The translations under genes were made by a program, and so were the position numbers. A stretch of DNA of 64,000 nt. Source: Pseudoxanthomonas sp. CF385 (GTDB taxonomy: Bacteria > Pseudomonadota > Gammaproteobacteria > Xanthomonadales > Xanthomonadaceae). The stretch is taken from positions 682,001 through 746,000 of the forward strand of contig NZ_FNKZ01000002.1 in the NCBI RefSeq assembly GCF_900104255.1. Reading direction: 5' to 3'. This document shows, one piece after another, positions 16,893 through 64,000 of the stretch (positions are counted from its first letter, which is position 1; the number at the start of each line of letters is the position of its first letter). Below the pieces are notes generated by a model that was not told where the DNA came from, did not search any database, and worked only from the letters and a program-made list of their open reading frames with translations.

Positions 16893-16973
16893 GGACGAGG
16901 CTCCCGGGGCGCTCGCCTATCATGATCAACATTCAGCCGTTACACTGGCCGCACAGGGGCATGAGGGGGATGC

Positions 16974-48702: not shown

Positions 48703-48832
48703 AGTCGCTGTTTCGTCTCAAATTTTGAGATTGAGCCACGATTCAGTGAGGTGACCGTCGCTTCACATCCGGCCCGTCCGCGTGCATGCGAGCGGAGTGG
48801 AAGTGCGCAAACCGGGGGTCCAGAATCGCGGG

Positions 48833-49603
48833 ATGTGCCTGGTTGCGCTCGCCTGGAATGTCCACCCCCGCTGGCGGCTCGTGCTGGCCGGCAATCGCGA
48901 CGAGTTCCACGCCCGTCCCACGGCCGCCCTGGCCGCCTGGGAGGCGCCGGCCGGGATCCTCGCCGGCCGCGACCTGCAGTCCGGGGGAACGTGGGCCGGC
49001 ACCGACCGGCAGGGGCGCGTGGCCGTCGTGACGAACGTGCGGGACCCGGCCATCGTCGTTCCGGGCGCACCGTCGCGCGGCCAGCTCGCCACGGGATTCC
49101 TGGCCTCGCCGGATGGCGCGGACCATCGCACCGCCGGTCTGCTGGTGGCGGCGGAGTCCTTCGCACCGTTCAACCTGGTGCTGGCCGATGCGACGACCTG
49201 CGAGTACCTCAGCAACTACCCCACACCCCGCCGCATTCCGTTGGCACCGGGCGTGCACGGGCTGTCCAATGGAGACCTAGACGAACCTTGGCCGAAGACG
49301 GTTGCACTGAAGGCGCGGCTGGCGACCTGGATCGCCGCCGGCGACGAGGATGTGGCGCCACTGTGGGCGGCGTTGGCCGACGAAACGCCCGCACCGGACG
49401 AGCGCCTTCCGGATACCGGCGTAGGCCTCGACCTCGAACGCCGGCTCTCTCCCGCCTTCATCCGCGACACCCGCTATGGCACCCGCGCCAGCACGCTGAT
49501 CGCCATCGACCACCATGGCCACGGTTGGATCAGCGAGCGCCGCTTCGGACCGGAAGGCGTATTCGAAGGCGAGACGACGTTGCGGATTGGCATCGAGGCG
49601 TAG
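48833..49603 (+). CDS. NRDE-family protein (TANGO2-like, DUF833)
   Basis: A 256-residue protein of the NRDE family. It starts MCLVALAWNVHP with Cys at position 2 and contains the name-giving LAGNRDEFHARP; both are conserved in TANGO2-type proteins, whose fold resembles N-terminal nucleophile hydrolases. The biochemical activity in bacteria is not settled. The ATG at 48833 places the conserved Cys2 at the N-terminus, as in homologues; the open frame upstream to 48782 is unsupported. Divergent from mraZ. It is the last chromosomal gene before the integrated element. Confidence 0.9.
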   Translation: MCLVALAWNVHPRWRLVLAGNRDEFHARPTAALAAWEAPAGILAGRDLQSGGTWAGTDRQGRVAVVTNVRDPAIVVPGAPSRGQLATGFLASPDGADHRTAGLLVAAESFAPFNLVLADATTCEYLSNYPTPRRIPLAPGVHGLSNGDLDEPWPKTVALKARLATWIAAGDEDVAPLWAALADETPAPDERLPDTGVGLDLERRLSPAFIRDTRYGTRASTLIAIDHHGHGWISERRFGPEGVFEGETTLRIGIEA

Positions 49604-49777: not shown

Positions 49778-49852
49778 GGCGGCGGAGCCGGCCACTTAAC
49801 TGATCCGGAAAATCCCTTGTTCTAGGGGCTTTGAGCTGGTCCATCGTGTCGG

Positions 49853-49871
49853 CGTACCCGAAAACGTACCC
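49853..49871. repeat. CGTACCC direct repeat upstream of the integrase
   Basis: CGTACCC at 49853-49859 and 49865-49871, one helical turn apart and 18 bp before the integrase start. Similar pairs precede many P4-type integrase genes and may be arm-type integrase sites or an autoregulatory operator. Confidence 0.55.
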
Positions 49872-49889
49872 AATACTAAGGAAAGCCCC

Positions 49890-51110
49890 ATGCTCACCCT
49901 GTCTACGATCAAGGCCGCCAAAGCCCAGCCCAAGCCATACCGCCTGCCTGACTTCGGCGGTCTGTTTCTGCAAGTACAGCCGTCCGGCGGAAAGGTCTGG
50001 CGCTTGCGCTATCTCCGTCCCGGCACGCGGAAAGAGAACATGCTGAGCTTCGGCTCGTTCCCGACCGTCTCGCTGCAGGACGCCCGTGAGGCCCGCGAGG
50101 ATGCCCGGCGGCTGCTGAGCCGCGGAATCGACCCCGGCATGCGAAAGAAGACCGAGAAGCTGGTGACGGCCCAGAAGGCGGCTAGCACTTTCGGCGCCAT
50201 TGCCGACGAGTACTTTGACAAGCGGGCACGGGAGACGGACGAAGACCCGTCCAAGCGAGAACGCAGCCGCTACGACAACCACCTGAAACCCATCATCGGC
50301 AACGTGCCGATTGCCGACGTGACGGCACCCATGCTGCTGTCCGCTTTGCGCAAGCCCGAGGCCGCCGGCAAACTGGAAACCGCTCGTCGGCTGCGGGCCA
50401 TGTCTGGGCGCATCTTCCGCTACGCCATCGCCACCGGGCGTGCCACCCGCGACCCGTCCGCCGACCTCGTGGGTGCATTGACGATGCCGACGCCGACCAA
50501 CTTCGCCGCGGCCACCGACCCGAAAGACCTGCCCGACCTGCTGCGCGCACTGTGGAGCTATGCGGGTGGGCCGATTGTCTCGGCCGCCCTGCAACTGACT
50601 CCCCTGCTGTTTGTTCGCCATGGTGAACTGCGCTCGGCTCGCTGGGCCGACATTGACCTCGATGCGGCCGAGTGGCGCTTCTCTGCGAGCAAGACCAAAA
50701 CGCCGCACATCGTTCCGCTGGCAACGCAGGCCATTGAGATTCTCACCGAGCTGCACAAACTCACGGGACGTGGTGCATACGTGTTCCCCAGCGCCCGTGG
50801 GGGTGACCGCCACATGTCTCAGGTCGCCACTCTCTCCGCTATGCGTCGCATGGAACTGCCCGCCGACCTCGTGACCAATCACGGCTGGCGTGCCACAGCC
50901 CGCACGTTGCTGGACGAAGTGCTGGGCTTCCGTCCCGACGTCGTCGAGCACCAGCTCGCGCATGCAGTGAAAGACCCGTTGGGTCGTGCGTACAATCGCA
51001 CCTCCCACCTGCCGGAGCGCAAGGTGATGATGCAGGCGTGGGCGGACTATCTGGACAGCCTGCGTACCGGCTCGAATGTTGTGGCGATTGAATCGCGCCG
51101 GAGCGCGTAA
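49890..51110 (+). CDS. int: P4-type tyrosine integrase
   Basis: Site-specific recombinase of 406 aa. An N-terminal DUF4102 arm-binding domain (IKAAKAQPKPYRLPDFGGLF) is followed by a core-binding domain (residues ~100-190). The catalytic domain has the first Arg about 243 in RHGELRSARW, the HxxR box in NHGWRATARTLLDE, and the nucleophile Tyr in GRAYNRTSH. Near-consensus motifs indicate an active enzyme. AAGGA precedes the ATG at proper spacing. It sits at the left end of the island as expected for this class. Confidence 0.97.
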   Translation: MLTLSTIKAAKAQPKPYRLPDFGGLFLQVQPSGGKVWRLRYLRPGTRKENMLSFGSFPTVSLQDAREAREDARRLLSRGIDPGMRKKTEKLVTAQKAASTFGAIADEYFDKRARETDEDPSKRERSRYDNHLKPIIGNVPIADVTAPMLLSALRKPEAAGKLETARRLRAMSGRIFRYAIATGRATRDPSADLVGALTMPTPTNFAAATDPKDLPDLLRALWSYAGGPIVSAALQLTPLLFVRHGELRSARWADIDLDAAEWRFSASKTKTPHIVPLATQAIEILTELHKLTGRGAYVFPSARGGDRHMSQVATLSAMRRMELPADLVTNHGWRATARTLLDEVLGFRPDVVEHQLAHAVKDPLGRAYNRTSHLPERKVMMQAWADYLDSLRTGSNVVAIESRRSA

Positions 51111-51118
51111 GGAAAGCA

Positions 51119-51901
51119 ATGGGGAGGACGACTGACCGCCTGCGAAAGCACCACCCGTCACGCGGCCATGAAACGGTGTTCGACCGGTCAGATTTCACTC
51201 GATTGCTGGAAACTCATCTTGGTAGCACCCTCACCTCCGTGCGGCCGGAGGACATTACGCGCCTGATGTTCGCCATCGGTATCGCAGCGTCAGAGGAGTC
51301 GAGGATCACGGCCGGGCATGAGTCGAGGAAGGACAGCCTCGCGGCGCTCAGAGCGATGTTCCGCCTGCCTGATGACGATCTGATCGCCGTGTTACCGACT
51401 TGCGATATGGCGACGTTCGGCCGAATCCAAACAGCACAGACCGAGCTGGACTACCGCCGTAACGGGATTCCCATCGTCGAAGTGCCGAGCTCGACGCTCA
51501 CTGATGCCGACGAGGTGGACGCTAGGCTGATCCATAGGCGGTCCATCGAGTTACCGACAACCGGGCGGCAACTCTACCTGCCAATGGGCATTGACGGCCT
51601 GCGTGAAGCAGTAGCGGAAGCAATCGCGGTCGCTGAACAGGAAACCGGTAGTGCGGGCAACAAGTCCAAGCCGCACATGGAAGATCTGGCGGAAGCCTGC
51701 AACGATTTCATGAGGAAGTACCCACTACCCAGAAGAAAGCACGATGCTCCATCGCGCGATGTACCCCTGTCCGCACCGGTGAGGTTCGCCACCGAGATTT
51801 ACGCGCTGGCGGGAATGAACGGCATTGGTGACTCGAGGGTTGAGCAGCTACTTACTCGTGCGAGGAGGCGTACGGAGAAGGGAAATTGTAAGCCTGCCTG
51901 A
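51119..51901 (+). CDS. Hypothetical protein of the island
   Basis: A 260-residue soluble protein with no membrane segment and no motif I recognise. The N-terminus is basic (RTTDRLRKHHPSRGH). A middle part (TLTDADEVDARLIHRRSIEL) and a C-terminal helical basic region (SRVEQLLTRARRRTEKG) could bind nucleic acid; that is speculation. It starts 8 bp after the integrase stop with AAGGA upstream, so it is probably co-transcribed with int. Confidence 0.6.
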   Translation: MGRTTDRLRKHHPSRGHETVFDRSDFTRLLETHLGSTLTSVRPEDITRLMFAIGIAASEESRITAGHESRKDSLAALRAMFRLPDDDLIAVLPTCDMATFGRIQTAQTELDYRRNGIPIVEVPSSTLTDADEVDARLIHRRSIELPTTGRQLYLPMGIDGLREAVAEAIAVAEQETGSAGNKSKPHMEDLAEACNDFMRKYPLPRRKHDAPSRDVPLSAPVRFATEIYALAGMNGIGDSRVEQLLTRARRRTEKGNCKPA

Positions 51902-51995
51902 AATTCCCAAATAAGTAGGGATACATCCCCTCTCACGGTTAGCAAAGTGTCCAGCAAGGGCGGCAGTGGTCGCCGAATGGCAAAGGACATTTTGT
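51902..51995. other. Short gap before the excisionase-like gene
   Basis: 94 bp containing an imperfect dyad GGGAT-AC-ATCCC (51918-51929) that could be an operator for the early operon. The ribosome-binding site AAAGGA lies just before 51996. Confidence 0.35.
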
Positions 51996-52193
51996 ATGAC
52001 GTTTCATCCGAACGACCTCCTCGATGAAAAGGAGGCGGCGAGCTACCTGAAATTCAACGCCAAGACGCTGCGCAACTGGCGGGCGACCAAGCAAGGTCCG
52101 GAGTGGGTGCGCGTCTCCACGCGCTCCATCCGCTACCGCTTCTCCGATCTGGAAGCCTTCATCGCCGCTTCGACGGCGAAGGTGGTTCCGTGA
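51996..52193 (+). CDS. AlpA/excisionase-like helix-turn-helix protein
   Basis: A 65-residue MerR-type winged-helix DNA-binding protein (HTH_17 class): LLDEKEAASYLKFNAKTLRN is the helix-turn-helix and RSIRYRFSDLEAFIA the wing and final helix, the typical layout of AlpA and Xis proteins of P4-like satellites. It would control excision or the early promoter. Start at 51996 is supported by AAAGGA; a longer frame from 51966 is less likely. Its stop overlaps the next gene's GTG. Confidence 0.85.
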   Translation: MTFHPNDLLDEKEAASYLKFNAKTLRNWRATKQGPEWVRVSTRSIRYRFSDLEAFIAASTAKVVP

Positions 52194-52417
52194 GCGCCCC
52201 GGAATCCGTTACCGACTCGGCGCTGGTGTGGGTTGATGGTCACCACTTCGTGTTCATGCACCGTGGTCGCGAGGTCTGGAGCTGCTGGCCGGCCGACACC
52301 AAAGACGTGGACATGCTGCTGGAGGTGATCCTGCCCGAGAAGAACTGGTTCACCCTCGATCATCGCAACCAATTCGTGAATCTGTTGGAGGCGCGCTTCG
52401 GCGCGAAGTTCCGCTAA
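52190..52417 (+). CDS. Small hypothetical protein
   Basis: A 75-residue acidic-to-neutral protein starting at GTG, with the preceding stop nested in the start (GTGA). Contains a compact, aromatic-rich segment (LVWVDGHHFVFMHRGREVWS) that looks like a small beta domain. No family recognised. Translationally coupled on both sides (the next gene begins with TAATG). Confidence 0.6.
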   Translation: MSAPESVTDSALVWVDGHHFVFMHRGREVWSCWPADTKDVDMLLEVILPEKNWFTLDHRNQFVNLLEARFGAKFR

Positions 52418-53274
52418 TGCGCGACTATGGGAAGGTTCACACTTCGTTCTGGGAAAGCCCGTCGGCGCGCGCGCTGACGGGTGATGGTCGCTACCTCGCG
52501 CTGTACCTGTTGACCTGCAAACACAACACCACTGCGGGCGCGTTCCGTTTGCCGGATGGCTATGCGTGCGAAGACCTGCAGTGGACGTTTGAGCGGCTCC
52601 ACGAGGTTTTCCGCGAGCTGATCGAAAGCGGCTTCGCTACCCGTTGCGAAGTTTCGAAGTGGGTATTCATCCACAAGCATCTCGACTGGAACCCGCCCGA
52701 GAATCCGAATCAGGGCAAAGCCGTCGCCAAGGTCGCGGCGATGGTGCCCGAGTCTTGCAGCTGGAAGCAGGAGTTCGAAATGGTCTTGAGCCGTTTCCAG
52801 ACCGTTCCTCAGAGCACCCGCAACCCTTCGGAAACCGTTCCGGAACCCTTCGCTAACCAGAAACAGAAGCAGAAGCAGAAGCAGAAGAATGATGGCGCTG
52901 GCGCGCCCGAATCCAGCTTTGAGAATCTGAGCAACGAAGGCAGTGAGGAGCTCGCACAGATCACCAAGCAGCCCGCTGCCCTCGGCGTCTGCGAATTGAT
53001 TGCCGAGGGCATCGATCCGCAGCACGCCAAGGACTGGCTGAAGGTGCGCAAAGACAACCGCGCGCCGCTCACTCAGACCGCGTGGGACGGCGTGAAGGCA
53101 GAAGCAGCGAAGGCAGGGATCACTCCCGCTCAGGCTGTCGAGATTGCCGCTACGAGCTCGTGGCGCGGCTTCAAGGCAGACTGGGTCATGAGCGGCAGCA
53201 TGAAACAGGGCACGGCCGCTGAGGTCTCCAAGGCGAGCCAGCCCGGCGGCGGGCGCAAGCGGCTGGGCTCGTAA
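52417..53274 (+). CDS. Phage-type replication protein (winged-helix N-terminus)
   Basis: A 285-residue protein. The N-terminal ~110 residues resemble the winged-helix domain of phage replisome organisers (VHTSFWESPSARALTGDGRY, FIHKHLDWNPPENPNQGK). A flexible linker with a (Gln-Lys)5 run follows, then a C-terminal helical part (ITPAQAVEIAATSSWRGFKADW) like the helicase-loader interaction domains of DnaT/DnaD-type proteins. It immediately precedes, and is translationally coupled to, the DnaB-like helicase, which fits a helicase loader or origin-binding role. Confidence 0.7.
   Translation: MRDYGKVHTSFWESPSARALTGDGRYLALYLLTCKHNTTAGAFRLPDGYACEDLQWTFERLHEVFRELIESGFATRCEVSKWVFIHKHLDWNPPENPNQGKAVAKVAAMVPESCSWKQEFEMVLSRFQTVPQSTRNPSETVPEPFANQKQKQKQKQKNDGAGAPESSFENLSNEGSEELAQITKQPAALGVCELIAEGIDPQHAKDWLKVRKDNRAPLTQTAWDGVKAEAAKAGITPAQAVEIAATSSWRGFKADWVMSGSMKQGTAAEVSKASQPGGGRKRLGS
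52858..52887 (+). repeat. Hexanucleotide tandem repeat (CAGAAR)5
   Basis: Five units, encoding Gln-Lys repeats in the linker of the replication protein. Changes in copy number would lengthen or shorten the linker without frameshift. Confidence 0.8.
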
Positions 53275-54539
53275 TGCAGACTCCCATCCATGCGGAAGAA
53301 GCCGTACTCGGCGGCATCTTGCTCTGCAACGACAACTATCACGACGCGGCCCGCTGGCTGACGGCCGATCACTTCACGTCCATGACTCGCAAACGAGTGT
53401 GGGGCGCGCTCCGCGAGCGCATCCTCTGCGGGGAGCTGGCCGACACGATCACCATCGCCGAGAGCCTGCCGAATGATGCGGACGAAGTGTTCGCCCTCGT
53501 CGAGGCTTGCGTAACCGCCCGGACGGTTGATACGTACATCCGCATCGTCCACAACAACTGGCGGCTCCGTGAGGCAGCCCGGATCGGGGCAAGCCTGATT
53601 GCCAGTAGCCGCGAAGGTGGGGATGGCGTGAACGAAGCCATTGGCGCGCTGCTGCGGCTCAACGCGACGGTGACGGAACACGAGTTCACCGGCCAGCAGG
53701 CGATGCGCATGGCGTTCGATCAGGCCCGCGCCGCATACGAGAACGGCGGCAAACTCCCCGGCATCACGACCGGCCTCAACAAGCTGGACGCGATCCTCGG
53801 CGGCTTCCACGACTCCGACCTGACCATCATTGGTGGCCGTCCGGCGATGGGCAAAACCGCATTTCTGCTGGGCTTGGCGGAAGCGGCGGCGCAGTCTGGA
53901 GTTCCCGTGGGCCTGATCAGCGCCGAGCAACCTGCGATCCAGATCGGCATCCGTCGCGTCTCCCTGTCCTCGGGCGTGGCCGCCGCCCGCATCCGCTCTG
54001 GCCAGTTCGAAGAGGAGGACTGGGGCAAGCTGGTGTCGGGGATGACCAAGTCCAAGGATGCCCCGGTTTGGATCTATGACCGCAGCGCCGTGACGCTGGA
54101 TGAGCTGATCAGCGTCGCGCGCAAGTGGAAACACACCCACGGGATTCGCGCCTTGTTCGTGGACTATGCGCAGCGCATCACGGTGCCCGGCACTGACCGC
54201 ATCACGGAAGTTGCGACCGTGGCGCGCGGCCTGAAGAACCTCGCTCGTGACCTCAACATCCCGGTGATCGCACTCGCTCAGGTCGTGAAGGGTGTCGATA
54301 CCCGCGAGGACAAGCGCCCGAATGCTGGCGACCTCGCCAACTCCGACGAGCTGACCCGCGAGGCGGACCAGATCCTGATGCTCTACCGGGACGAGGTCTA
54401 CAACGCTGACACCCGGAACAAGGGCACTGTCGAGGTTCTGATCGAGAAGAACCGCAACGGCCCGATTGGTTTTGAGCACTTCGCCTTCTTGCCCGAGACG
54501 ATGAAATTCGCTGACCTCACGCCTGAGCCGGAATTCTAG
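53274..54539 (+). CDS. DnaB-like replicative helicase
   Basis: A 421-residue RecA-fold 5'-3' helicase of phage type. The N-terminal helical domain matches DnaB (HAEEAVLGGILLCNDNYHDA). Walker A is GGRPAMGKTAF with Lys about residue 194, Walker B RALFVDYAQR, and the DnaB C-terminal motifs NSDELTREADQILMLYRD and IEKNRNGP are present. It probably lets the element replicate after excision. TAATG coupling to the preceding gene suggests a loader-helicase pair. Confidence 0.93.
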   Translation: MQTPIHAEEAVLGGILLCNDNYHDAARWLTADHFTSMTRKRVWGALRERILCGELADTITIAESLPNDADEVFALVEACVTARTVDTYIRIVHNNWRLREAARIGASLIASSREGGDGVNEAIGALLRLNATVTEHEFTGQQAMRMAFDQARAAYENGGKLPGITTGLNKLDAILGGFHDSDLTIIGGRPAMGKTAFLLGLAEAAAQSGVPVGLISAEQPAIQIGIRRVSLSSGVAAARIRSGQFEEEDWGKLVSGMTKSKDAPVWIYDRSAVTLDELISVARKWKHTHGIRALFVDYAQRITVPGTDRITEVATVARGLKNLARDLNIPVIALAQVVKGVDTREDKRPNAGDLANSDELTREADQILMLYRDEVYNADTRNKGTVEVLIEKNRNGPIGFEHFAFLPETMKFADLTPEPEF

Positions 54540-54610
54540 TCACAAGCACGAGCCCCCACTCCACTACGGTGCCGCTCTGCACCGCGATTCTCACCAAGGA
54601 AGCAAAACCA

Positions 54611-55288
54611 ATGAATGACTTTCGAACCCTCAGCCGCACCGGCACCTGTGATGCAGCCGACACCGATGAACCCATGGGCGTGTTCGAGATCCTGAACTCC
54701 TCCATGCCCGCCGCTACCAGTGCTGCATTCATTGCCACCAAGCACGATCAAGACGCCTTGATCCGCACCATCGGTCAGCGGATGCGTGAGGCTCGCGAGC
54801 TGTGCAACCTGACTCAGAGCGAGGCGGCGCGCCGGTTGGGCTACGCCAACCCCTCCAAGTTGTCGAAGGTGGAGGCGGCAACCGACACGAATAGCGTTCC
54901 GCTGTGGCTGATCCATAGCGCCAGCAAGTTGTATGAGGTCAGCGTGGACTACTTGTTCGGTATCACGGACGACTGGGAGACCGGTGTGCCGCGCGGTACG
55001 CAGGCGTTCCTACTCGACGCATGGCAGAAAATGCGCGAACGAGACCTGCTGGCGCTGGATCGCCTGCACCGGGAAGTCGTCGCGGTCAGTGGTGGCGCCG
55101 GTGCAATGCTCTGCGCGGTCAAGGAATTGTCGGCCGCCATCAGTCTCTATTGCAGCCGCAATCCCGGCTTCGCTGAGACCCTCGGCTCGGCGACCGTGAT
55201 GCACCGTCTCGGCCGGCTGGAAGCGGCAGCAACCGTTGCCGAAGTTGATCTGAGGAAGCTGCGCCTCTCTTCGCAGGAGGTCGTATGA
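54611..55288 (+). CDS. XRE-family (Cro/CI-like) transcriptional regulator
   Basis: A 225-residue protein. A helix-turn-helix of the XRE type lies at about residues 50-105 (RMREARELCNLTQSEAARRL then GYANPSKLSKVE and VSVDYLFGITDD). The C-terminal ~100 residues are helical and may dimerise. Unlike most phage repressors it is not divergent but embedded in the same-strand gene chain, so it may regulate late rather than early genes. The ATG at 54611 has AAGGA upstream. Confidence 0.85.
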   Translation: MNDFRTLSRTGTCDAADTDEPMGVFEILNSSMPAATSAAFIATKHDQDALIRTIGQRMREARELCNLTQSEAARRLGYANPSKLSKVEAATDTNSVPLWLIHSASKLYEVSVDYLFGITDDWETGVPRGTQAFLLDAWQKMRERDLLALDRLHREVVAVSGGAGAMLCAVKELSAAISLYCSRNPGFAETLGSATVMHRLGRLEAAATVAEVDLRKLRLSSQEVV

Positions 55289-55467
55289 CCAGCGCCCTGA
55301 CCAGCCCCGACCCCGATACCAGCCACTCGACGCAAACGCTCCCTGCAGAGTCCGAATACGTGAGCGGCGGCGACACGACGTTCGTGAGCACGGAAGCTCT
55401 CGACCGCCGGACGTTCGATGAAATGGAGCGCTTGGCCCTACGCCCCTACCGTTGGGGATCGACCTAA
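55285..55467 (+). CDS. Small hypothetical protein
   Basis: A 60-residue acidic, Ser/Thr-rich protein with no hydrophobic segment, coupled by ATGA to the XRE gene. Not recognised. Its C-terminus (FDEMERLALRPYRW) is the only part likely to be structured. Confidence 0.5.
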   Translation: MTSALTSPDPDTSHSTQTLPAESEYVSGGDTTFVSTEALDRRTFDEMERLALRPYRWGST

Positions 55468-55539
55468 AGTACGGAAAAAGGGCCCGAAAGCCCGCTTAGA
55501 GCGGCGAGAACATGACTCCACCATATAGGAGTCATACGA

Positions 55540-56112
55540 ATGAAGATCCAGAACACGTTGCCGACGATCGACGGCCCGACCATGATGGAACTCTCCCGCT
55601 CGGGCGTGCTCGCCGAAGCGAATGAGGTCCGCAAGACCATCCAGCGCGCTCTGGGCGAGCTGAACCCGGCCGGCGTCGTTTCGCTCGCCCTGAGCCTCAA
55701 CCCCGATGACCCGCCGGCCTCCGCCCTCTCCAAGGTCAAGGCCGGCATCGGCGAAGCCGTCAGCGCGCTGGCAGCCGCCGGCACCGCTTCGGGCAATGCG
55801 CACCGCGCTGAGCAACAGCGCCTCGCCGGCACCGTGGCTGCGGCGACGCATCGCACGCTGCAGATCGCCGGCGAGCTGGCGAACATCAAGGCGCGAATTC
55901 GGTCGGGTGAGTACCACGAGAACGGCAAGCGGGATCGCCTGCGCGCAGCGGGCCTCGACGGCGAAGAACTGGACCGCGCTGCCGCGCCGTTCGATGCGAG
56001 CGCCCTGAACGCCGAGCACGCCACACTGGTCAAAGAGCAAGACGCCCTCGAAGCGTTCCTCCGCAGCCGCGATTCGAAGCACTTGCCGGAAGGCTTCGAG
56101 GTTTCCCCGTAA
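55540..56112 (+). CDS. Hypothetical helical protein
   Basis: A 190-residue protein, Ala-rich and mostly helical (GEAVSALAAAGTASGNAHRA, ELANIKARIRSG), with a final coiled-coil-like stretch (LVKEQDALEAFLRSRDSK). No known domain. AGGAG precedes the ATG at good spacing. It begins a second tightly coupled gene group (to 58502) in the island. Confidence 0.6.
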   Translation: MKIQNTLPTIDGPTMMELSRSGVLAEANEVRKTIQRALGELNPAGVVSLALSLNPDDPPASALSKVKAGIGEAVSALAAAGTASGNAHRAEQQRLAGTVAAATHRTLQIAGELANIKARIRSGEYHENGKRDRLRAAGLDGEELDRAAAPFDASALNAEHATLVKEQDALEAFLRSRDSKHLPEGFEVSP

Positions 56113-56345
56113 TGGGCGCGCCCTGCCGCGCCACCACTGGCCGCCCGCCCAGCGCCTCCGGTGTCCGCGCCGAGGCTGCGCGCCACGCCCGTGACAGTGT
56201 GCGCGTGCTGGCCGAGGTGGCTGCCAGCCACGCCACTTCCGTGCCTGACCGCGTGCGCGCAGCGGAGATCATCTTGACCTTTGCCACCCTCCGCAAGGAC
56301 CGCAGCAAGGACACTCGCCCGGCACAGGAGGGGGCGACGGCATGA
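56112..56345 (+). CDS. Small basic hypothetical protein
   Basis: 77 residues, rich in Arg and Ala (RAEAARHARDSVRVLAEVAA). TAATG coupling with the preceding gene and ATGA with the next. Could be nucleic-acid binding; no family recognised. Confidence 0.5.
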   Translation: MGAPCRATTGRPPSASGVRAEAARHARDSVRVLAEVAASHATSVPDRVRAAEIILTFATLRKDRSKDTRPAQEGATA

Positions 56346-57172
56346 GCGGTGGCTTGGAGATCAGCATCGTGTCGCGCACCCTGAGTTCCGAGTGGCATGG
56401 CCTCTCGACGCACTTGATCGCCAAGTTCTACGAGGTGGCGCAGCAGGATGGCTCTTGGGTCGATGCCGGCAAGGGCGTGACGGTATGTGCTCCGCTCACT
56501 GAGGCCGAAATCGACGCGACGCTCAACTGGCAGAGCCCGTTCGAGCAGTCCGGCCCCGAATCCTCCATGCCCGCGCTCATGGCGATGCTGCAGTCCGGGG
56601 CCATCCAACCCGTGCTCAACTCGCTCGATAGTCTCGCCGAAACCGTGACGGATGCGACCGGCACGGCGCGCGTACTGAATCCCGTCAAAGACAAGGTCGC
56701 CGCGGGGCTAAAAGCCGGCGCACGGGGGCTGGAAGGCCGCACCGGCATCACGCGCTTGAACTCCATGCAGGTGTTCTCCGGAATGCCGCCCGTCAAGATC
56801 ACGGTCGTCGCCCTATTCCGGGCATGGAAAGACCCCGCCAAGGAAGTCGAGGCGCCAGTGAATCAGCTCATGTCGTGGGCATTGCCGGAGCAATTGAGCG
56901 ACATGGGCCCGCTCCTTTCCCGAGCGGCCGACTACGCCGCTGGGGGCTCCACTTCGCCCACCGACGTGCTCGCGCCCTCCAAGGCTCCCAGCAAGATCGC
57001 GATGACCTACAAGGGCAAGACCTACGCGCCGCTGGTGATCGAGTTCATTGGCCAGCCCATCGCATCCCCCGTGAGCAGCGACGGCCGCTACGTCGAAATG
57101 CTCGTGCCCATGACCCTTTGCACGCTGACCGCGCTGGACAGGGGAGACTGGAAGCGAATCAACGGCGGCTAA
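56342..57172 (+). CDS. Hypothetical protein, possible phage structural or morphogenesis protein
   Basis: A 276-residue soluble protein. Mixed alpha/beta sequence with a central segment QVFSGMPPVKITVVALFRAW then EVEAPVNQLMSWALPEQLS, which reminds me of phage baseplate/tail-cap type proteins, but I cannot name a family. It lies three genes before the terminase small subunit, in a region where packaging or morphogenesis genes are expected. It could alternatively be a satellite protein that redirects helper-phage assembly. Coupled by ATGA to the gene before it. Confidence 0.55.
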   Translation: MSGGLEISIVSRTLSSEWHGLSTHLIAKFYEVAQQDGSWVDAGKGVTVCAPLTEAEIDATLNWQSPFEQSGPESSMPALMAMLQSGAIQPVLNSLDSLAETVTDATGTARVLNPVKDKVAAGLKAGARGLEGRTGITRLNSMQVFSGMPPVKITVVALFRAWKDPAKEVEAPVNQLMSWALPEQLSDMGPLLSRAADYAAGGSTSPTDVLAPSKAPSKIAMTYKGKTYAPLVIEFIGQPIASPVSSDGRYVEMLVPMTLCTLTALDRGDWKRINGG

Positions 57173-57215
57173 CGTCTGCCACAGCAATGAACAACCGGAA
57201 TAGGAGCAGGAAAAC

Positions 57216-57506
57216 GTGGAAACCGAGAATGTGATTGCGCAGACGGGGATGCAGGTTTACGTCGCCTCGCTGATGGCCATGAAAGAGGACATGGCCACTT
57301 TCCGCTCAGATCTGGGCGCCGCCTTCGACGCGATTGACGACGCCGGCCTCCTGCGGCTCATCCGGGTCGCCTACCACGACGGCGAGCACGTCACGGACAT
57401 GACCGGCCGAATCGACGCCTGCCAGTCCGCGATCAAGCGCGCACTGAGCGGTGGTGCTCTCGATTTCGCGCAGCGGCTCGCCGCCATGGAGGAGGGAGCG
57501 CCGTGA
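57216..57506 (+). CDS. Small hypothetical protein
   Basis: 96 residues starting at GTG with AGGAG upstream. Mainly helical (GMQVYVASLMAMKEDMATFR). Its stop is nested in the start of the terminase gene (GTGA), so it is translated together with it. No family recognised. Confidence 0.5.
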   Translation: METENVIAQTGMQVYVASLMAMKEDMATFRSDLGAAFDAIDDAGLLRLIRVAYHDGEHVTDMTGRIDACQSAIKRALSGGALDFAQRLAAMEEGAP

Positions 57507-58060
57507 CCGCGAAGAAGGCGCGGCGCAAAGCCGCCAAGGCACCGCCGGAGGCGAAGAACGGGCGCCCGACCAAGTACCGCCCCGAATTCGCCGAGCAGGC
57601 TCGCAAGCTGGCCCTGCTGGGCTTCACTGACGAGAAGATGGCCGATTTCTTCGAGGTCGAAGTCCGCACCATTTATCGCTGGAAGGCTGAGCACGCCCAG
57701 TTTTGTCAGGCCGTAAAGGCGGGCAAGGACGATGCCGACGCCACGGTCGCCAACACCCTGTATCGGTCGGCGCTCGGGGGCGGCACCGTCACGGAAGTGA
57801 AGCAGGAAACCGACGCCGACGGCAAAGTCATCCACCGGAAGACCGTGAAGGAACTCCCCGCCAACGTTACCGCGCAAATTTTCTGGCTGAAGAACCGACA
57901 GCCCCAGCAATGGCGGGAGAAGGTCATCGTCGAAGACGCGACGCCGCCGGAAGTGATCGCCGAGACGGCGGCCCGCTTCGACGAAATCATGCGAATTGCA
58001 CGCGAGCGCCAGCGCACGATTCTGGCGACCCGTGGACTGCTGCAGGAGGGAGAGCAGTGA
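57503..58060 (+). CDS. Phage terminase small subunit-like protein
   Basis: 185 residues. The N-terminus is basic (KKARRKAAK), followed by the helix-turn-helix of small terminases (EQARKLALLGFTDEKMADFF then VEVRTIYRWKAEH) and the conserved tail pattern KAGKDDADATVANTLYRSA ... TAQIFWLKNRQPQQWREK. Small terminase subunits select DNA (pac/cos) for packaging. No large subunit gene is present in the window. Phage satellites of the PICI type carry exactly such a lone TerS to redirect the helper phage terminase, which is the reading favoured here. Confidence 0.82.
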   Translation: MTAKKARRKAAKAPPEAKNGRPTKYRPEFAEQARKLALLGFTDEKMADFFEVEVRTIYRWKAEHAQFCQAVKAGKDDADATVANTLYRSALGGGTVTEVKQETDADGKVIHRKTVKELPANVTAQIFWLKNRQPQQWREKVIVEDATPPEVIAETAARFDEIMRIARERQRTILATRGLLQEGEQ

Positions 58061-58233
58061 CGGGGAAGACCGCACACGCCCCGCCCCGCTTTCGCGCCTC
58101 CGAAAGGCGCCGCATGGCAGCTCTCTGTGCACTGTCCGGCGATGAGGTCATTGGCGCGTCGCTGGCAGATCCGGCGCCGATGCGGATTCGCCGACCCGCG
58201 CCGAAGTCCCGAAACCGCCGCAAGAAGCCGTGA
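58057..58233 (+). CDS. Small Arg-rich hypothetical protein
   Basis: 58 residues, strongly basic (C-terminus RIRRPAPKSRNRRKKP). GTG start overlapping the terminase stop (GTGA) with GCAGGAGGG upstream, so translation is well supported. Function unknown; nucleic-acid binding is plausible. Confidence 0.5.
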   Translation: MTGKTAHAPPRFRASERRRMAALCALSGDEVIGASLADPAPMRIRRPAPKSRNRRKKP

Positions 58234-58502
58234 GCCATGACCCGCAGAACCCTCAAACCCTAATGGATGGACCAATGACGTCTGAAACGACAACCACCGG
58301 CATGCTGCGCGACGCAATCCGTGCACCCTACGTGAAACCCGAGGAGCCGAAGATGCGCGCTCAGGCGCGACAGAATCTCCGTACGGCGGTAGCCGCCTTG
58401 AAGGTCGAGATCGCTGCCAGCGCGGTCTACATGGCGCAGCCCCAGAAGAGGCGGATCACTGAACTGGCGAAGACACTGGAGGCGCATATCCAAATGCTGT
58501 AG
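58230..58502 (+). CDS. Small hypothetical protein
   Basis: 90 residues, starting at a GTG that overlaps the previous stop. The second half is helical and amphipathic (ARQNLRTAVAALKVEIAASA). An internal ATG at 58263 or later could be the true start. Not recognised. Confidence 0.5.
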   Translation: MSHDPQNPQTLMDGPMTSETTTTGMLRDAIRAPYVKPEEPKMRAQARQNLRTAVAALKVEIAASAVYMAQPQKRRITELAKTLEAHIQML

Positions 58503-58626
58503 ACGCCCGATCTGCAAGCCATGGAAATACCGCTATTGATACCTGAAACAATACCCGTAGGGCGTCGTATCGCAGCCCGCAGCGCTCCATCATGCTCCCC
58601 ACGCAATCACGCAACCGGGAGCCACC

Positions 58627-58950
58627 ATGATGAACCTTCGCCCGACCCCAGCCGTCGCCCTGTCCAGCCTCTACGTCACCGTGAAAGAATTGTGTGCATC
58701 GCAGGATGCTGCGCTCATGCAGATCCTCACCATGGCCAAGCTGGCGCGGAACGGGCTCAACGACGACATTGAAGACGCAGCGGAACATGCCGGACATGTC
58801 CTCGACGCAATCATGCGAATCGCTGCGGCAATCATTGCTGACCTCGACGTGGCCCAGAACGAGATTGAAGATGCCCGTCTGCGTGGCGGCGAGACGGGTG
58901 ACGGTTCGACCCTTGCTTCATCGCCGTTCGCGTCCCCGCAGCCGTTCTGA
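58627..58950 (+). CDS. Small hypothetical protein
   Basis: 107 residues, helical (SLYVTVKELCASQDAALMQI, EHAGHVLDAIMRIAAAIIAD), acidic. Preceded by GGGAGCC. Resembles small accessory proteins of phages in size and composition, but no family is identified. Confidence 0.5.
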   Translation: MMNLRPTPAVALSSLYVTVKELCASQDAALMQILTMAKLARNGLNDDIEDAAEHAGHVLDAIMRIAAAIIADLDVAQNEIEDARLRGGETGDGSTLASSPFASPQPF

Positions 58951-59052
58951 GGCCGGTAGAATCTTCCATGTCCGGCGGTGCGCGCGAGCTTGCCATCCGC
59001 ACCTGCAAGTAGTCCATGTCCACCCTCGGGGCTACGCCGGACACCCACGCAA

Positions 59053-59084
59053 CGGCCGCAACTCATGGCCGCTTGCTTTTTTTT
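59053..59084 (+). terminator. Intrinsic terminator before the GmrSD-like gene
   Basis: Short stem CGGCC / GGCCG with an 8-10 base loop, followed by CTTGC and eight T residues. It separates the phage-like genes from the defence cargo. The 276-bp gap 58951-59226 is otherwise empty of genes and must hold the promoter for the next gene. Confidence 0.65.
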
Positions 59085-59226
59085 GGCACGGTACCGGACT
59101 GTTTGGCCGGCACCGAAAACTGGACGACCCAAACCACAAGCAAACGGCTCGGAACTTCCTGGCGACGGCCCTGGACGGCGATCCTCCGGCATAATCTCCC
59201 TGGGCTTACTCAGCAGAGGGAAGGGC

Positions 59227-61092
59227 ATGAAGTCGGAAACCTGGACGATCCAACAGGTGTTCCAGGAACGCCGACAGTACAAGGTGCCGTTCTACCAACG
59301 CGCATATGTATGGACGCTCAAAGGGCAATGGGAACTGCTCTGGGCGGATATCAAGGACAAGGCCAACGAACGGCTCACTGGGGTCAAGCCTGCACCTCAC
59401 TTCCTCGGCGCCATTGTTGTTGAACCCCAGGAACGCATTGCGCTGCGCGGCGTCGATACTGCGCACATCATCGACGGCCAACAACGGCTAACAACGCTTC
59501 AGTATGTGCTGACCGGCTTTCGCTTAGCAGTGCGGGAACTTGGGATCAAGGAAGTGGACTCGTTCCTATCGTCGGTCTTGGACAATCCCCATCCCGATAC
59601 GATGGCAAACCCCGATGTTGAAGTGTTCAAGGTGTGGCCGACCTTCAGCGATCAGGCACATTTTACTGCGTCGATGACCTCTGATTCATTGACGCAGTTG
59701 AAGCAGCGCTATCCCGATCACTTCACCCAAGCCGGAAACATCCGCAAGATAGGCAGCCTCCACCCTGGCTCCCTGGAAGCCGTCTGGGCCTTCGCTGACT
59801 GGGCGAAGGAATGGATACAGGCCAACGGTGCGGCCAGTGCGGAAGCCCTGGTGATGGCCGTGCTTCAAGACCTCAAGGTGGTGCTCATTTCGCTAGAACG
59901 GGGCGATGATGCCCAGGTGATTTTCGAGACATTGAACGGACGCGGCGCCGAACTCCACGCGACCGATCTTATCCGCAATCACTTGTTCATGAGCATGGAT
60001 CCGGCCACCGAAGACCCGGCCCAGCTCTACGAAACGAAGTGGAAGCAGTTTGAATCGCCACAGTGGAAACAAGGCGAAACTCGCGGGCGCATGACCAAGC
60101 CACGCCTGGAATGGCTGGTCTACAACTTGATTCGAGCGGAAACCGGACAGGAAGGCGATCTTGCCCGGCTGTATGTCGATTTCAAGGATTATACGAAAAC
60201 GCTCACGGCCACACGGCAATTGGAAGTGCTGGATACCTATGCCAGCCACTACCTGGACCTGCTGACTAAGAAGGGCGACCGACCCATTGCCGGATTTGGT
60301 CGCCGCCTCGCTGCCTATGACGCCACGACGACTCATGCCCTAGCCTTAAAAGTTTCAACGGCCAACCTCGCACCGAGCGACCAAGCTGCGATCTTCAATA
60401 GCCTAGTTTCCTACATCGTGCGCCGTCAGGTCTGCGGCCTGACCACGAAGAATTACAACAACACTTTTATGTCGCTACTGCGCCAGTGGTCGAAGGGGGC
60501 GCTGACGCATGACGCCTTCAAGGCGCTGCTGGGCGTGTCCCAGGCCGACGCCACCCGTTGGCCAGATGACGCCGAGTTCACACAGGCCCTGGTCCACGCA
60601 CCGTTGTATCCCGGACGCTTGGACGCGCCGCGTTGCCGTTGGCTGCTAACCGAACTGGAAGGCTATCTGCGCAGCCAGAAGAAGAGCGAGGAACCGCAGG
60701 CACCCGACCTCTCGAATCTGGACATCGACCATCTCATGCCTCAGTCGTGGTTTGAGTATTGGCCCCTGCCGAAGGGCGACAAGGGCACGAAGATCGAAGC
60801 GGATGCCGCCTACTTGCTGGAGCTCACGGGCGGCACCTTGAGCGACCATCAGGCCGCGATCCGCACCCGCATGAGAACGGTGCCTTCACTGGGCAACCTC
60901 ACACTCTTGAACTTGAGTGTGAACCGCGAAGCCCAGAACAAGGCTTTCCCAATCAAGCAGAAGCTTTTCATCGAACACACGAACCTTAGCCTGAACACGA
61001 AGCTGATTGCCTTGGACTCGTGGGACGAAACCACCATCGCCCAGCGTGGCGCGTTGCTGGCAGACGCGGCGGTGAAGATCTATCCGCGGTGA
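59227..61092 (+). CDS. GmrSD-type (DUF262 + DUF1524) type IV restriction protein
   Basis: A single 621-residue chain. The N-terminal DUF262 (GmrS-like, ParB-type nucleotide-binding) domain shows VPFYQRAYVW, IIDGQQRLTTLQYVL and VIFETLNGRGAELHATDLIR. The C-terminal DUF1524 HNH nuclease shows DIDHLMPQSW, SLGNLTLLN and the following Asn. Family members cut phage DNA with modified (for example glucosylated) bases, or DNA marked by other systems. The ATG at 59227 has GAGGGAAGGG upstream. It precedes the type II system, forming a defence segment at the right part of the island. Confidence 0.88.
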   Translation: MKSETWTIQQVFQERRQYKVPFYQRAYVWTLKGQWELLWADIKDKANERLTGVKPAPHFLGAIVVEPQERIALRGVDTAHIIDGQQRLTTLQYVLTGFRLAVRELGIKEVDSFLSSVLDNPHPDTMANPDVEVFKVWPTFSDQAHFTASMTSDSLTQLKQRYPDHFTQAGNIRKIGSLHPGSLEAVWAFADWAKEWIQANGAASAEALVMAVLQDLKVVLISLERGDDAQVIFETLNGRGAELHATDLIRNHLFMSMDPATEDPAQLYETKWKQFESPQWKQGETRGRMTKPRLEWLVYNLIRAETGQEGDLARLYVDFKDYTKTLTATRQLEVLDTYASHYLDLLTKKGDRPIAGFGRRLAAYDATTTHALALKVSTANLAPSDQAAIFNSLVSYIVRRQVCGLTTKNYNNTFMSLLRQWSKGALTHDAFKALLGVSQADATRWPDDAEFTQALVHAPLYPGRLDAPRCRWLLTELEGYLRSQKKSEEPQAPDLSNLDIDHLMPQSWFEYWPLPKGDKGTKIEADAAYLLELTGGTLSDHQAAIRTRMRTVPSLGNLTLLNLSVNREAQNKAFPIKQKLFIEHTNLSLNTKLIALDSWDETTIAQRGALLADAAVKIYPR

Positions 61093-61387
61093 GTTGAAAC
61101 CCGCCCCTGTTCGTTCCACATGGCCGTCCCAGTTGCTGCCCCACCCAAAACAGCACGCGGACTGCATGTGTCTCCTGGGCTGGCCTTGGTGAACGCGCAC
61201 TTGGTACTGCCCATCGACGGCGGCATCGGGTCAGCCTCAAGTGCTCGATCTCGGTCAGCTGATACTCGCCTCACAGGGAGGGGGTGGAGGGGGGTGTATC
61301 AACCCATGAGACGCGTATGGTAAAAATGCGTTACCGGCCTGGCCTGTCCATTGTGGACACGCTGGGCCATTGCACGGATGAGAGGCC
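61093..61387. promoter_or_regulatory. 295-bp gap upstream of the restriction-modification genes, with operator-like palindrome
   Basis: No gene supported. A perfect 15-bp inverted repeat TGTCCA, TTG, TGGACA lies at 61345-61359, 28 bp before the methyltransferase ATG. It is well placed for autoregulation of the methyltransferase. No separate controller (C protein) gene is seen. Confidence 0.55.
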
Positions 61388-63049
61388 ATGACAGGTGCCA
61401 AGAAAAAGCCTGCCGCTGCCCGCCGTGCCCCAGCCATGAGCAAGGGGCATCTGCAGGCGCCCCGGCTGATTAAGAACGAACGCGAATTGGTGGCGCTGTG
61501 TTTGGCGCTGCTGGGCCCACGCCCGAAGCTTTCGCCACCCGAGCGGGCGCTCGCCAACGGCGTGCGTCCCTTGGCCGAACGTGCCCTGGTCAAGCGAGCC
61601 CGGGACTACATTCGCAAAGGCGCAGACCCCCTCGGTGGGGTTTTCTTGCGCCTGCGCACCCCGGCGGTTCGCCGCGACATGGGGGCGGTCTACACCCCGG
61701 ACCCCATCATCCAGTCCATGCTCAATTGGTCCGCCGACCAAGGCGTACCGGAGCGGGTGGTAGACCCTGGAGCGGGCTCGGGCCGCTATTTGCTGGCGGC
61801 AGCCGAGCGCTTCCCCAACGCCAAGTTGGTCGGAGTGGAGCTGGACCCCCTCGCCGCCCTCATGCTTCGGGCCAACATCGCGGCTCGCGGGCTGACGGCA
61901 CGCGCCACGGTGGTGGTCGAGGACTTCCGTCTGGCGGAGCTGCCCTCGGTGAAGGGCAAGACCCTTTACCTGGGAAATCCGCCTTACGTGAGGCACCACG
62001 ACATCGGCGACGACTGGAAGCAGTGGTTTGCCGTGTCCGCCAAGGCGTATGGGGTCAAGGCCAGCAAGCTGGCCGGCCTCCATATCCATTTCTTCCTTCG
62101 TGCCCTGCAGCTGGCGAAGCCTGGTGACGTGGGAACGTTCATCACGTCCGCCGAGTGGCTGGACGTGAACTACGGTGCCACGCTCCGGCGCCTGCTGGCC
62201 GAGCGCCTGGGTGGCGTGGCTGTCCATGTGCTGGACGCGCGCGCGCGCCCGTTCGAGGACGCTGCCACCACGGCCGCCATCACCTGTTTCCAGGTGGGGG
62301 GGCACTCCGACGGCCTTCGAGTCCGCTCGGTGGAAAGCCTGGAAGCACTCAACGGCTTGAGCAAGGGCGACGTGGTGCCGTGGGAGCGCGTCCAAAGCGC
62401 GGCCCGCTGGTCACCGCTTTTCCGGCCGGCTCGCCCCATTCCGCAAGGCTACGTGGAGCTGGGCGAACTGTGCCGGGTCCACCGCGGTCAGGTGACCGGC
62501 GGGAACAGCGTCTGGATTGCGGGTGAGCACGCCACCGCTCTCCCTGACAGTGTGCTGATGCCCACCATCACCAAGGCGCGCGACCTGCTTTCGGCCGGGG
62601 AGCAGCTAAACAGCCCGGAAGCGTTGCGCCGTGTCATCGACATTCCGGCAGACCTGGATGCGCTGAACGACGAAGACAAGCAATCCGTGGAACGCTTCTT
62701 GAAGTGGGCCAAGGCCCAGGGAGCGGACGGCTCCTACATCGCGCAGCATCGGCGTGCCTGGTGGGCGGTCGGCCTCAAGGCCCCTGCCCCCATCCTCTCC
62801 ACCTACATGGCTCGCAGGGCTCCGGCCTTTGTCCGCAACCTGTGCGACGCCCGGCATATCAACGTAGCCCATGGGCTCTACCCCCGCCAAGAACTGCCGG
62901 AGGCAACGCTGGACACCTTGGCGGCCTGGTTGCGTTCGAATGTCGTCACCGACGATGGTCGGACCTACGCGGGTGGGCTGACCAAGTTTGAACCGAAGGA
63001 ACTGGAGCGCGTCTTGGTGCCAAGCCTGGAAACGCTGGCCGGTCAGTGA
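61388..63049 (+). CDS. N6-adenine DNA methyltransferase of a type II system (XamI-like)
   Basis: 553 residues. The SAM-binding motif I is VVDPGAGSGRYLLAA with VGVELDP following. The catalytic motif IV is NPPYVRHHD, characteristic of gamma-type N6-adenine methyltransferases. A C-terminal ~300-residue target-recognition region follows, including the GNSVWIAG loop. It protects host DNA from the adjacent nuclease. Similarity to the XamI-type methylase is my judgement from the paired endonuclease; specificity (XamI cuts GTCGAC) cannot be confirmed from sequence. The endonuclease gene starts 10 bp after. Confidence 0.88.
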   Translation: MTGAKKKPAAARRAPAMSKGHLQAPRLIKNERELVALCLALLGPRPKLSPPERALANGVRPLAERALVKRARDYIRKGADPLGGVFLRLRTPAVRRDMGAVYTPDPIIQSMLNWSADQGVPERVVDPGAGSGRYLLAAAERFPNAKLVGVELDPLAALMLRANIAARGLTARATVVVEDFRLAELPSVKGKTLYLGNPPYVRHHDIGDDWKQWFAVSAKAYGVKASKLAGLHIHFFLRALQLAKPGDVGTFITSAEWLDVNYGATLRRLLAERLGGVAVHVLDARARPFEDAATTAAITCFQVGGHSDGLRVRSVESLEALNGLSKGDVVPWERVQSAARWSPLFRPARPIPQGYVELGELCRVHRGQVTGGNSVWIAGEHATALPDSVLMPTITKARDLLSAGEQLNSPEALRRVIDIPADLDALNDEDKQSVERFLKWAKAQGADGSYIAQHRRAWWAVGLKAPAPILSTYMARRAPAFVRNLCDARHINVAHGLYPRQELPEATLDTLAAWLRSNVVTDDGRTYAGGLTKFEPKELERVLVPSLETLAGQ

Positions 63050-63059
63050 GACGCGAGGA

Positions 63060-63965
63060 ATGCGCGTGGACCAAGCATTGAGGGACTATCACAAGGACCA
63101 GGCGGCCCGCGCCCGTGAAATCTATATCCAGTCGCGTACGTCTTCCACAGACGTTGCCGACTGGAAAGCAGCCGTCCTAGATGCCAGGCGCTCCATCAAG
63201 CAAGCCCTTCGTGCTTCGAATTACTTAAGAGACGTCGGGGCCGCGGTCCTTGCTGACAGCGAGCACACGCGCGTATTCCGATACGCCCTGGCACCACCCC
63301 TGAGCAAAGACCAGTTCGCCCTCTGCTATCCGATCGCCAAGGGCGTCACCGGAAAGGCGAGGAAGCTGGCGGTGGCCAGCGCTTTTGCGCAGTCCATTCA
63401 AGACCGCAGGGACCAAGCCCTTACCCCTTGGCTGTTAGCTGGACGACTGCCTTCCCGGCAGGAGCTGAAGAAGTTTTTTTGGTCGATAGGCCCGCTGCTG
63501 GCCCAGCAACAATTCGCTACCGCTCAGCGCAACAGGCTGGCGAGGCTTCAAGAAAGCCAGGTAACGGCCATCCTCGACGCTAGCGGCTGGGTGAAACTGC
63601 AATCATCCCTTCTCGATGTAAAGGCCGCTCTTCCGCAACGGCACTACATGCACAAGACCCGCTTCGCCACCAACACGGCCACCCCTCAAGAAGTGGACGT
63701 AGCGCTGGGATTGCCTAACACGGTGGTGTTGGCAATGGAGTGTAAGGTTTCGAACGACGAGACCAATTCGGTCAAACGCATTAACGACGTGCTGAAGAAA
63801 GCGCACGCATGGAAAGACCACTGGGGTAGCTTCGTCAAAACCGCAGCTGTGCTCCAAGGTGTCATTGCCGCAAAAGACGTTATGCGACTGCTTGATGGCG
63901 GCGTCGAAGTCTTCTGGTCCCACGACCTACCTCGGTTTGAGCGCTGGCTCTCCGAGAACGCCTGA
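63060..63965 (+). CDS. Type II restriction endonuclease, XamI family candidate
   Basis: 301 residues. The PD-(D/E)xK catalytic region is visible in the C-terminal half: Glu/Asp in PQEVDVALGL followed by the ECK triad in LAMECKVSND, a usual nuclease arrangement. The N-terminal half is helical (RAREIYIQSRTSSTDVADWK). Size, gene order and sequence feel match RE_XamI, but I cannot search to confirm. The start is ATG 63060 or GTG 63066; GAGGA sits 6 bp before the GTG and abuts the ATG, so GTG is attractive. Co-transcribed with the methylase. Confidence 0.75.
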   Translation: MRVDQALRDYHKDQAARAREIYIQSRTSSTDVADWKAAVLDARRSIKQALRASNYLRDVGAAVLADSEHTRVFRYALAPPLSKDQFALCYPIAKGVTGKARKLAVASAFAQSIQDRRDQALTPWLLAGRLPSRQELKKFFWSIGPLLAQQQFATAQRNRLARLQESQVTAILDASGWVKLQSSLLDVKAALPQRHYMHKTRFATNTATPQEVDVALGLPNTVVLAMECKVSNDETNSVKRINDVLKKAHAWKDHWGSFVKTAAVLQGVIAAKDVMRLLDGGVEVFWSHDLPRFERWLSENA

Positions 63966-64000
63966 ACCTTCTGCGTGCTGTGAGCTAAAAAGACATCGCC

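Follow-up and report, generated by a model that had tools for sequence, protein, structure and literature searches.

Phage satellites are known mainly for remodelling the capsids of their helpers and redirecting packaging. P4-like satellites, whose helpers are temperate myophages, carry an integrase, an AlpA-like gene, the alpha primase-helicase, Psu, Sid and Delta, and the capsid-forming phage-inducible chromosomal islands (cf-PICIs) make their own capsid and carry some virion genes. The PICIs of Gram-negative bacteria, according to the portions of their description available to us, have an integrase, a specific attachment (att) site, AlpA, a pri/rep replication module that is sometimes fused, and no capsid of their own, and some of them carry terS or phage-resistance cargo (PMC6092414). 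The tail has entered the picture through the PLE satellites of Vibrio cholerae, especially PLE11, which encode a tape-measure protein (TMP), a tail assembly chaperone and, in some, a baseplate hub, and so give rise to chimeric tails; the satellite TMP enters virions and removal of tmp strongly cuts transfer. The available text of that work presents the PLEs as the first satellite family for which manipulation of tail assembly is known, and also notes putative tmp genes in PLE-like elements and cf-PICIs (PMC12987554, Nature 2026). Here we describe an integrated element of Pseudoxanthomonas sp. CF385, found in a stretch of 64,000 nucleotides (contig NZ_FNKZ01000002.1, positions 682,001 to 746,000; hereafter the window), whose genes suggest a satellite that acts on the tail of P1-like phages.

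We consider this element, with a probability of roughly 65%, to be a satellite specialised on P1/Rb1-like myophages, a reading drawn from sequence comparisons. The helper type is proposed from an island gene, tail276, whose product is a member of the PmgG family, matching the baseplate protein PmgG of P1 in sequence and in predicted fold. In the parts of the P1 literature available, PmgG is described as a hexameric tube-linking protein and as a virion protein that is essential, complete tails not having been observed in its absence. As in satellites generally, the island is an integrated element with an integrase and an att repeat, and capsid, portal and large terminase subunit (TerL) genes are without a match. 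The original prediction, made from the letters of the window alone, had described an island without structural genes. Capsid, portal, TerL and conjugation families indeed found no match (18 island open reading frames [ORFs] were searched against Pfam, 10 of them also against PHROGs), but the PmgG-type baseplate gene at 56342-57172 is an exception to that claim. The predicted genes (integrase, AlpA-like, loader, DnaB, regulator, small terminase subunit [TerS], GmrSD, type II restriction-modification) were confirmed by profile searches. Two related elements, G115 and G261, come from other genomes. The genes, all on the plus strand, are as follows, with percentages referring to these two relatives or to Xanthomonas phage Rb1.

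49890..51110, plus strand: tyrosine integrase (Arm-DNA-bind_3 PF13356 8.6e-23, Phage_int_M PF22022 7.6e-28, Phage_integrase PF00589 4.5e-11; 60% to G115, 43% to G261)
51119..51901, plus strand: orf260, no assigned function (without Pfam or PHROG match; 47% to G115)
51966..52193, plus strand: AlpA-like regulator or excisionase (HTH_17 8.3e-9; phrog_66; 58% to G115)
52417..53274, plus strand: DnaD-like helicase loader or O-like replication protein (phrog_1701 E 1.4e-31, phrog_678 1.8e-16)
53274..54539, plus strand: DnaB-like replicative helicase (DnaB_C E 9.6e-74)
54569..55288, plus strand: REG, XRE-type regulator whose homologue in P1-like phages lies upstream of TerS (HTH_31, phrog_7396; 54% to G115, 57% to Rb1 over 155 amino acids)
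55540..56112, plus strand: orf190, family-specific, no assigned function (47% to G115, 37% to G261)
56112..56345, plus strand: orf77, small protein, its Rb1 homologue lying upstream of TerS (48% to G115)
56342..57172, plus strand: tail276, PmgG-type baseplate tube-linking protein of 276 residues (PHROG, PDB profile, model; 72% to G115, 68% to G261)
57216..57506, plus strand: small ORF before TerS, no assigned function
57503..58060, plus strand: TerS, 185 residues (phrog_309 core E 1.6e-48; C-terminal tail of P1-like TerS, tail profile E 1.9e-6; 61% to G261)
58230..58502, plus strand: small ORF, no assigned function
58627..58950, plus strand: orf107, common to G261 (37% over 75 amino acids)
58978..61092, plus strand: cargo, GmrSD-type type IV restriction enzyme (PF03235/PF07510; PADLOC mREase_IV 6.7e-211; likely start 59227 by reading)
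61388..63049, plus strand: cargo, type II DNA methyltransferase (Eco57I 3.5e-11; PADLOC MTase_II 3.1e-230)
62988..63965, plus strand: cargo, XamI-like type II restriction endonuclease (RE_XamI 1.5e-11; REase_II 1.3e-16; likely start 63060 by reading)
63966..64000 and on to 65788: remainder of the element, with one further likely gene, an SH3-domain ORF (L002:15304-16374), up to the 3' end of rnpB

Two features that the original prediction had singled out are borne out by these matches: a loader/DnaB pair in place of a primase-helicase fusion (phrog_1701 and DnaB_C; no primase domain in the Pfam and PHROG scans of the island ORFs), and a lone TerS with stacked anti-phage cargo (phrog_309 for TerS; GmrSD, methyltransferase and XamI-like endonuclease by Pfam and PADLOC).

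With P4-like satellites the element has in common the integrase, the AlpA-like gene and, presumably, a temperate myophage helper, but the Pfam and PHROG scans of the island, in which several small ORFs match nothing, found no alpha-type primase-helicase and no match to the Psu, Sid or Delta families. It shares with the cf-PICIs the possession of some virion genes, whereas the capsid that those elements make has no gene counterpart found in the island. The likeness to Gram-negative PICIs extends over the integrase, specific att site, AlpA, own replication module, terS, lack of an own capsid and phage-resistance cargo; in place of their pri/rep module, however, the island has loader and DnaB without a primase or Pri-Rep match, and it adds a tail gene and a helper-type regulator (PMC6092414). 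The Pseudomonas satellite AH14b, compared by its available description only, has a P4-like primase and no terminase (PMC4936722). Like the PLEs, the island would place satellite tail genes beside hijacked helper parts and protect its host from phages. The PLE helper is the lytic phage ICP1, whereas that of the island would be temperate and P1/Rb1-like; the hosts differ too, and the recurring parts of the island family are PmgG, REG and TerS. The CF385 island has no match to the tested TMP proteins, although seven of 14 related elements have one. Neither PmgG nor P1-like helpers are met in the available text of the PLE paper (PMC12987554). Among the phages themselves, P1 and Rb1 both have a PmgG homologue, and for Rb1 the kinship extends to REG, to orf77 and to the tail of TerS; Rb1, however, is a phage of 91 kb whose major capsid protein (MCP), protease and TerL found no counterpart in the island.

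The limits of the element were set from the att repeat. Its left end is marked by the attL core GGCGGAGCCGGCC at 49781..49793, a copy of the final 13 nt of rnpB, the RNase P RNA gene. An exact 13-bp copy, the attR core, was found where the original prediction had advised looking, beyond the window: it occupies L002:16789-16801, which is 65789-65801 in window coordinates, and sits at the 3' end of rnpB itself (L002:16788-17151, minus strand, 323.5 bits). Capsid, portal, TerL and conjugation genes were sought in the same extension, where they would have marked a prophage or conjugative element, and none was found; one more likely gene, the SH3-domain ORF, precedes rnpB there. We searched 38 genomes of the same genus, which returned 30 loci including our own; among the 29 relatives' loci read, 27 have rnpB directly after TANGO2, at a distance of 75-1157 bp and with the same 13 bases, and thus an empty site, and in the remaining two rnpB was not within the fetched stretch. 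By itself the 13-bp repeat is weak, as the next best chance matches reach 12 bp, but its precise fit to the 3' end of an RNA gene, together with the empty site, makes it more than a chance match. On these grounds the element measures 16,008 bp, from 49781 to 65788, so that the predicted start at 49853 has to be moved and the right end falls outside the window.

Related elements were collected by several routes. PmgG is present in three of 395 genomes of the host's taxonomic family, CF385 itself (G000), G115 and G261, which belong to three genera. A PmgG scan of viral contigs gave 54 loci, in 50 of which the gene stands among at least three further Rb1-type late genes; four loci (L040-L043) have TMP, PmgG, orf376 and REG, three of them also BPL and a long TerS, and in all four none of MCP, TerL, protease, the 'tail connector' or its neighbour h38 matched. 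With two Halomonas plasmids, reached via the L042 gene, this makes eight elements besides our own that were found through PmgG. An orf376 scan (42 loci) added L116 and L117, and a TerS scan, of which the best 80 of 546 relatives were kept, added L158, L159 and L160; of these five elements found without a PmgG query, four have PmgG and the fifth has TMP. A search of genome contigs with orf260 gave a single locus, G115, again reached without a PmgG query. Repeated regions were not counted (L109 repeats the L108 plasmid region; L144, L145, L147 and L157 are the same contigs as L043, L042, L040 and L041), and L151 and L156 stand outside the 14; both are viral contigs with an orf376 homologue and without any tested Rb1 structural gene.

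When 45 frames of Rb1 (PQ569993; 44 of its 92 annotated features plus one unannotated) were used as protein queries at E<1e-5, the 14 elements or fragments matched REG (14), PmgG (13), orf376 (10), TerS (7), TMP (7), DnaB (6), orf77 (5), BPL (5), an internal-head part (4) and DUF1376 (1). REG and PmgG occur together in 13. Only 10 of the 45 frames match any element and 35 match none; MCP, TerL and protease of Rb1 are matched in 0 of 14. Missing capsid genes mean little in L158, L159 and L160, because the first two contigs are 6.4 and 4.4 kb long and 11.8 of 14.2 kb was covered for the third. The tested capsid genes also had no match in the two Halomonas plasmids, for one of which (L107) 26,685 of 31,370 bases were examined; these plasmids carry REG, orf376 and PmgG. 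The original prediction had suggested a satellite family of Xanthomonadaceae that was as yet undescribed; it does appear to be undescribed, but its reach is wider than Xanthomonadaceae, taking in the Halomonas plasmids and further viral contigs.

The order REG-(orf376)-orf190-orf77-PmgG-TerS is kept in G000, G115, G261 and L116, with BPL and TMP inserted between PmgG and TerS in G115. That element, at tRNA-Pro, has orf376, BPL, a 994-residue tape-measure-like protein and a full-length Rb1-type TerS (67%) as extras, along with a DUF1376-type initiator. G261, at tRNA-Ala, has the integrase, a replication protein, REG, orf190, orf77, PmgG, TerS and orf107, and an orf376 that is 81% to that of G115; it also has what looks, from its Walker motif, like a DnaC-type ATPase loader. 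Because the replication genes differ in this way, the loader/DnaB pair is not a defining feature of the family. A possible right end of G115 is a 12-bp repeat of the tRNA-Pro T-loop region at C15:15238-15249, about 15.3 kb from tRNA-Pro (C15:30500-30576), the only candidate there; the right att of G261 was searched for and not found. orf190 had no match in 50,697 phage records, and searches of viral contigs with orf190 and orf260 gave no confirmed match; within the genus, orf190 was found in CF385 and as two weak partial matches (34-36% over 58-70 amino acids) that were not counted as members. No convincing PDB match was obtained for BPL or orf376, and the tape-measure profile weakly matched the phage Mu tape-measure protein (E 0.026).

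The TerS of the island has a core of a common type, which matches 401 phage records of many kinds, and a tail beyond that core. At 185 residues it is longer than six phage controls (142-152), which stop where the island protein continues, and than generic viral-contig TerS (median 158 residues); the additional tail resembles the last residues of Rb1 TerS (51% over 33 residues). A tail profile built solely from 22 P1-like phage TerS, with E scaled to 1000 sequences, matches 12 of 17 satellite TerS (E 5.5e-12 to 1.6e-4) and misses the short copies of L040, L041, L042 and L043 as well as L117_12908. At least one copy of the tail is present in 11 of the 12 satellites with any TerS in the examined stretch. 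Among generic TerS the profile finds 1 of 82, namely L169, which adjoins REG and TerL matches, has a TMP match nearby and was treated as phage rather than satellite. The profile replaced a strict text motif that missed many tails (satellite 3/14, P1-like 6/20, generic 1/76). TerS C-termini have an established role in TerL binding, and for that reason the natural reading of this protein is a putative helper-docking tail on an exchangeable DNA-binding core; the common tail could then serve as a simple marker for predicting which helper a lone-TerS satellite depends on. The four viral-contig elements L040-L043 have a shorter TerS without the P1-like tail and more than one REG-type gene.

The PmgG genes of G000, G115 and G261 are 67-72% identical, with intact frames and dN below dS in each pair (dN 0.22-0.28 vs dS 1.14-1.58; dN/dS about 0.14-0.25), and identity to Rb1 is 81% for G115 and 75% for G261. 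Several observations nevertheless weigh against a satellite specialised on P1-like helpers. The gene is rare, occurring in the three family genomes named above and in 1 of 369 genomes of the class. The island PmgG has a lower dS to Rb1 (0.56; dN 0.24) than to G115 (1.46) or G261 (1.14), and therefore part of its history, and of the purifying selection, may have passed in phages. In the tail-gene tree, which carried long-branch warnings, G115 pairs with Rb1 and not with G000, all three family members group with Rb1, and the nine satellite rows need four changes (bootstrap 3-4; shuffled mean 8.5). The tree and the dS pattern therefore indicate that the tail gene was taken up or swapped more than once, rather than descending in one old satellite lineage. 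P1-like phage TerS have several different cores with the same tail, and therefore the island TerS may have been captured as a phage variant and not assembled as a chimera by the satellite. Some REG matches are weak (24-35% in the Halomonas plasmids), and the CF385 island has PmgG only, without TMP. Finally, no resident helper was found in the three member genomes, because Rb1-type MCP had no match in them in a search whose positive controls matched in 2/2 records, and Rb1-type TerL was not matched in a search without a positive control. From the tree, the satellites appear to take up or swap PmgG from local phages while the backbone stays family-specific.

An element of this kind could also use PmgG against its helper, as a dominant-negative factor in tail initiation or a decoy that lowers helper yield. 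Satellite and prophage defences are known to act on tail assembly, as the available account of Rta in PLE11 indicates (PMC12987554), a poor copy of a protein essential in P1 could block tails, and the CF385 island carries its PmgG without a TMP. We regard this as unlikely, though worth keeping in mind: PmgG is strongly conserved among the three members, its closeness to Rb1 in G115 and G261 is as expected of a part that fits the helper, and the tape-measure gene in half of the 14 elements suits building over blocking. It is improbable that the island is an ordinary PICI- or P4-like satellite of an unrelated siphophage or podophage, with TerS deciding the helper and PmgG a passenger. The breadth of matches to the phrog_309 core and the PICI-like set of lone TerS, AlpA and integrase would fit such an element, but the extra residues that set TerS apart from the controls match the P1-like TerS tail, and REG accompanies PmgG in nearly all elements, even though eight besides our own were found through PmgG.

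The three restriction-modification genes, with no resident helper found, might instead mark a passive integrative element that has lost its mobility and is selected for defence. The open frames of the integrase, replication genes, TerS and PmgG, the exact att repeat and the lack of the element at the same site in 27 of the 29 relatives' loci make this very improbable. Least weight of all is given to a decayed P1-like prophage that lost its capsid genes. The Rb1 homologues of REG, PmgG, orf77 and the TerS tail would fit such a remnant, but elements from three genera have the same backbone and family-specific genes, each beside a different RNA gene (rnpB, tRNA-Pro or tRNA-Ala), the counterparts of the phage-like genes are dispersed over the Rb1 map, and only 3, 8 and 3 of the 45 Rb1 frames match the G000, G115 and G261 regions. 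A prophage remnant was accordingly rejected, since the compared frames are intact and the backbone is met again, with the same subset of genes, at different sites.

If the island is indeed a satellite of P1/Rb1-like phages, infection by or induction of such a phage would lead the element to excise and to replicate with its own loader and DnaB. The TerS core would bind a packaging site on the satellite DNA while the helper-type tail docks the helper TerL, and satellite DNA would be packaged into helper heads. Satellite PmgG may replace or compete with helper PmgG in the ring between the 6-fold tail tube and the 3-fold hub, yielding chimeric tails, and relatives that also encode a tape-measure protein might control a larger share of tail assembly. 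The GmrSD enzyme and the restriction-modification pair would defend the host against other phages. Helper identity, excision, packaging by the helper TerL and the chimeric tail are all inferred from the genes present.

Whether these elements together form an unnamed, widespread satellite class dedicated to P1-like phages seems to us evenly balanced. Such a class would hijack the virion at the tail and not the capsid, each member having a helper PmgG and/or tape measure, a helper-type regulator and a TerS with a helper docking tail, and exchanging these parts with local helpers to keep fitting. A satellite family for P1-like phages was not found in searches of the open-licence literature, by which measure these would be the first satellites of the P1 phage group. 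Together with the PLEs they would point to independent invention of chimeric tails. As a second family, one that keeps a single essential baseplate part for which P1 structures are solved, they would make the role of a satellite's own tail part directly testable.

Further observations concern the relatives and the surroundings of the island. L040-L043 encode a stand-alone inorganic-pyrophosphatase-like domain (family search on the L042 copy), a domain that phages have within large internal head or DarB-like proteins, and the tape-measure gene of L043/L144 is split into two frames (about 509 and 221 amino acids). In the Halomonas plasmid pZM3H1 (L107, NC_019426), the satellite-like block at 2349-7655 ends in a fragment matching only the first ~70 tape-measure residues, and an integrase and mercury-resistance cluster follow at 7693-17060, as if a mobile element had inserted. 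One Halomonas strain has the same satellite-bearing MobV plasmid region twice, in the 23-kb pTHAF12_c (L108) and inside the 169-kb pTHAF12_a (L109). A P1-like prophage region with an annotated TerS and an Rb1-type MCP (62%) lies at 582-616 kb of the 709-kb Ideonella dechloratans plasmid NZ_CP088082 (L106). Inside the island, no clear iteron or pac array was seen among the repeats, and a tRNA search with ARAGORN, which covered the window and 40 kb around and beyond it, gave no hit. The element is flanked by a TANGO2-family gene (48782-49603) on the left and by rnpB and then a DUF885 gene on the right. The start of a minus-strand dcw cluster (MraZ, MraW, FtsL, FtsI-like, MurE; gene names by reading) lies near the insertion site, at 43518-48514 of the window.

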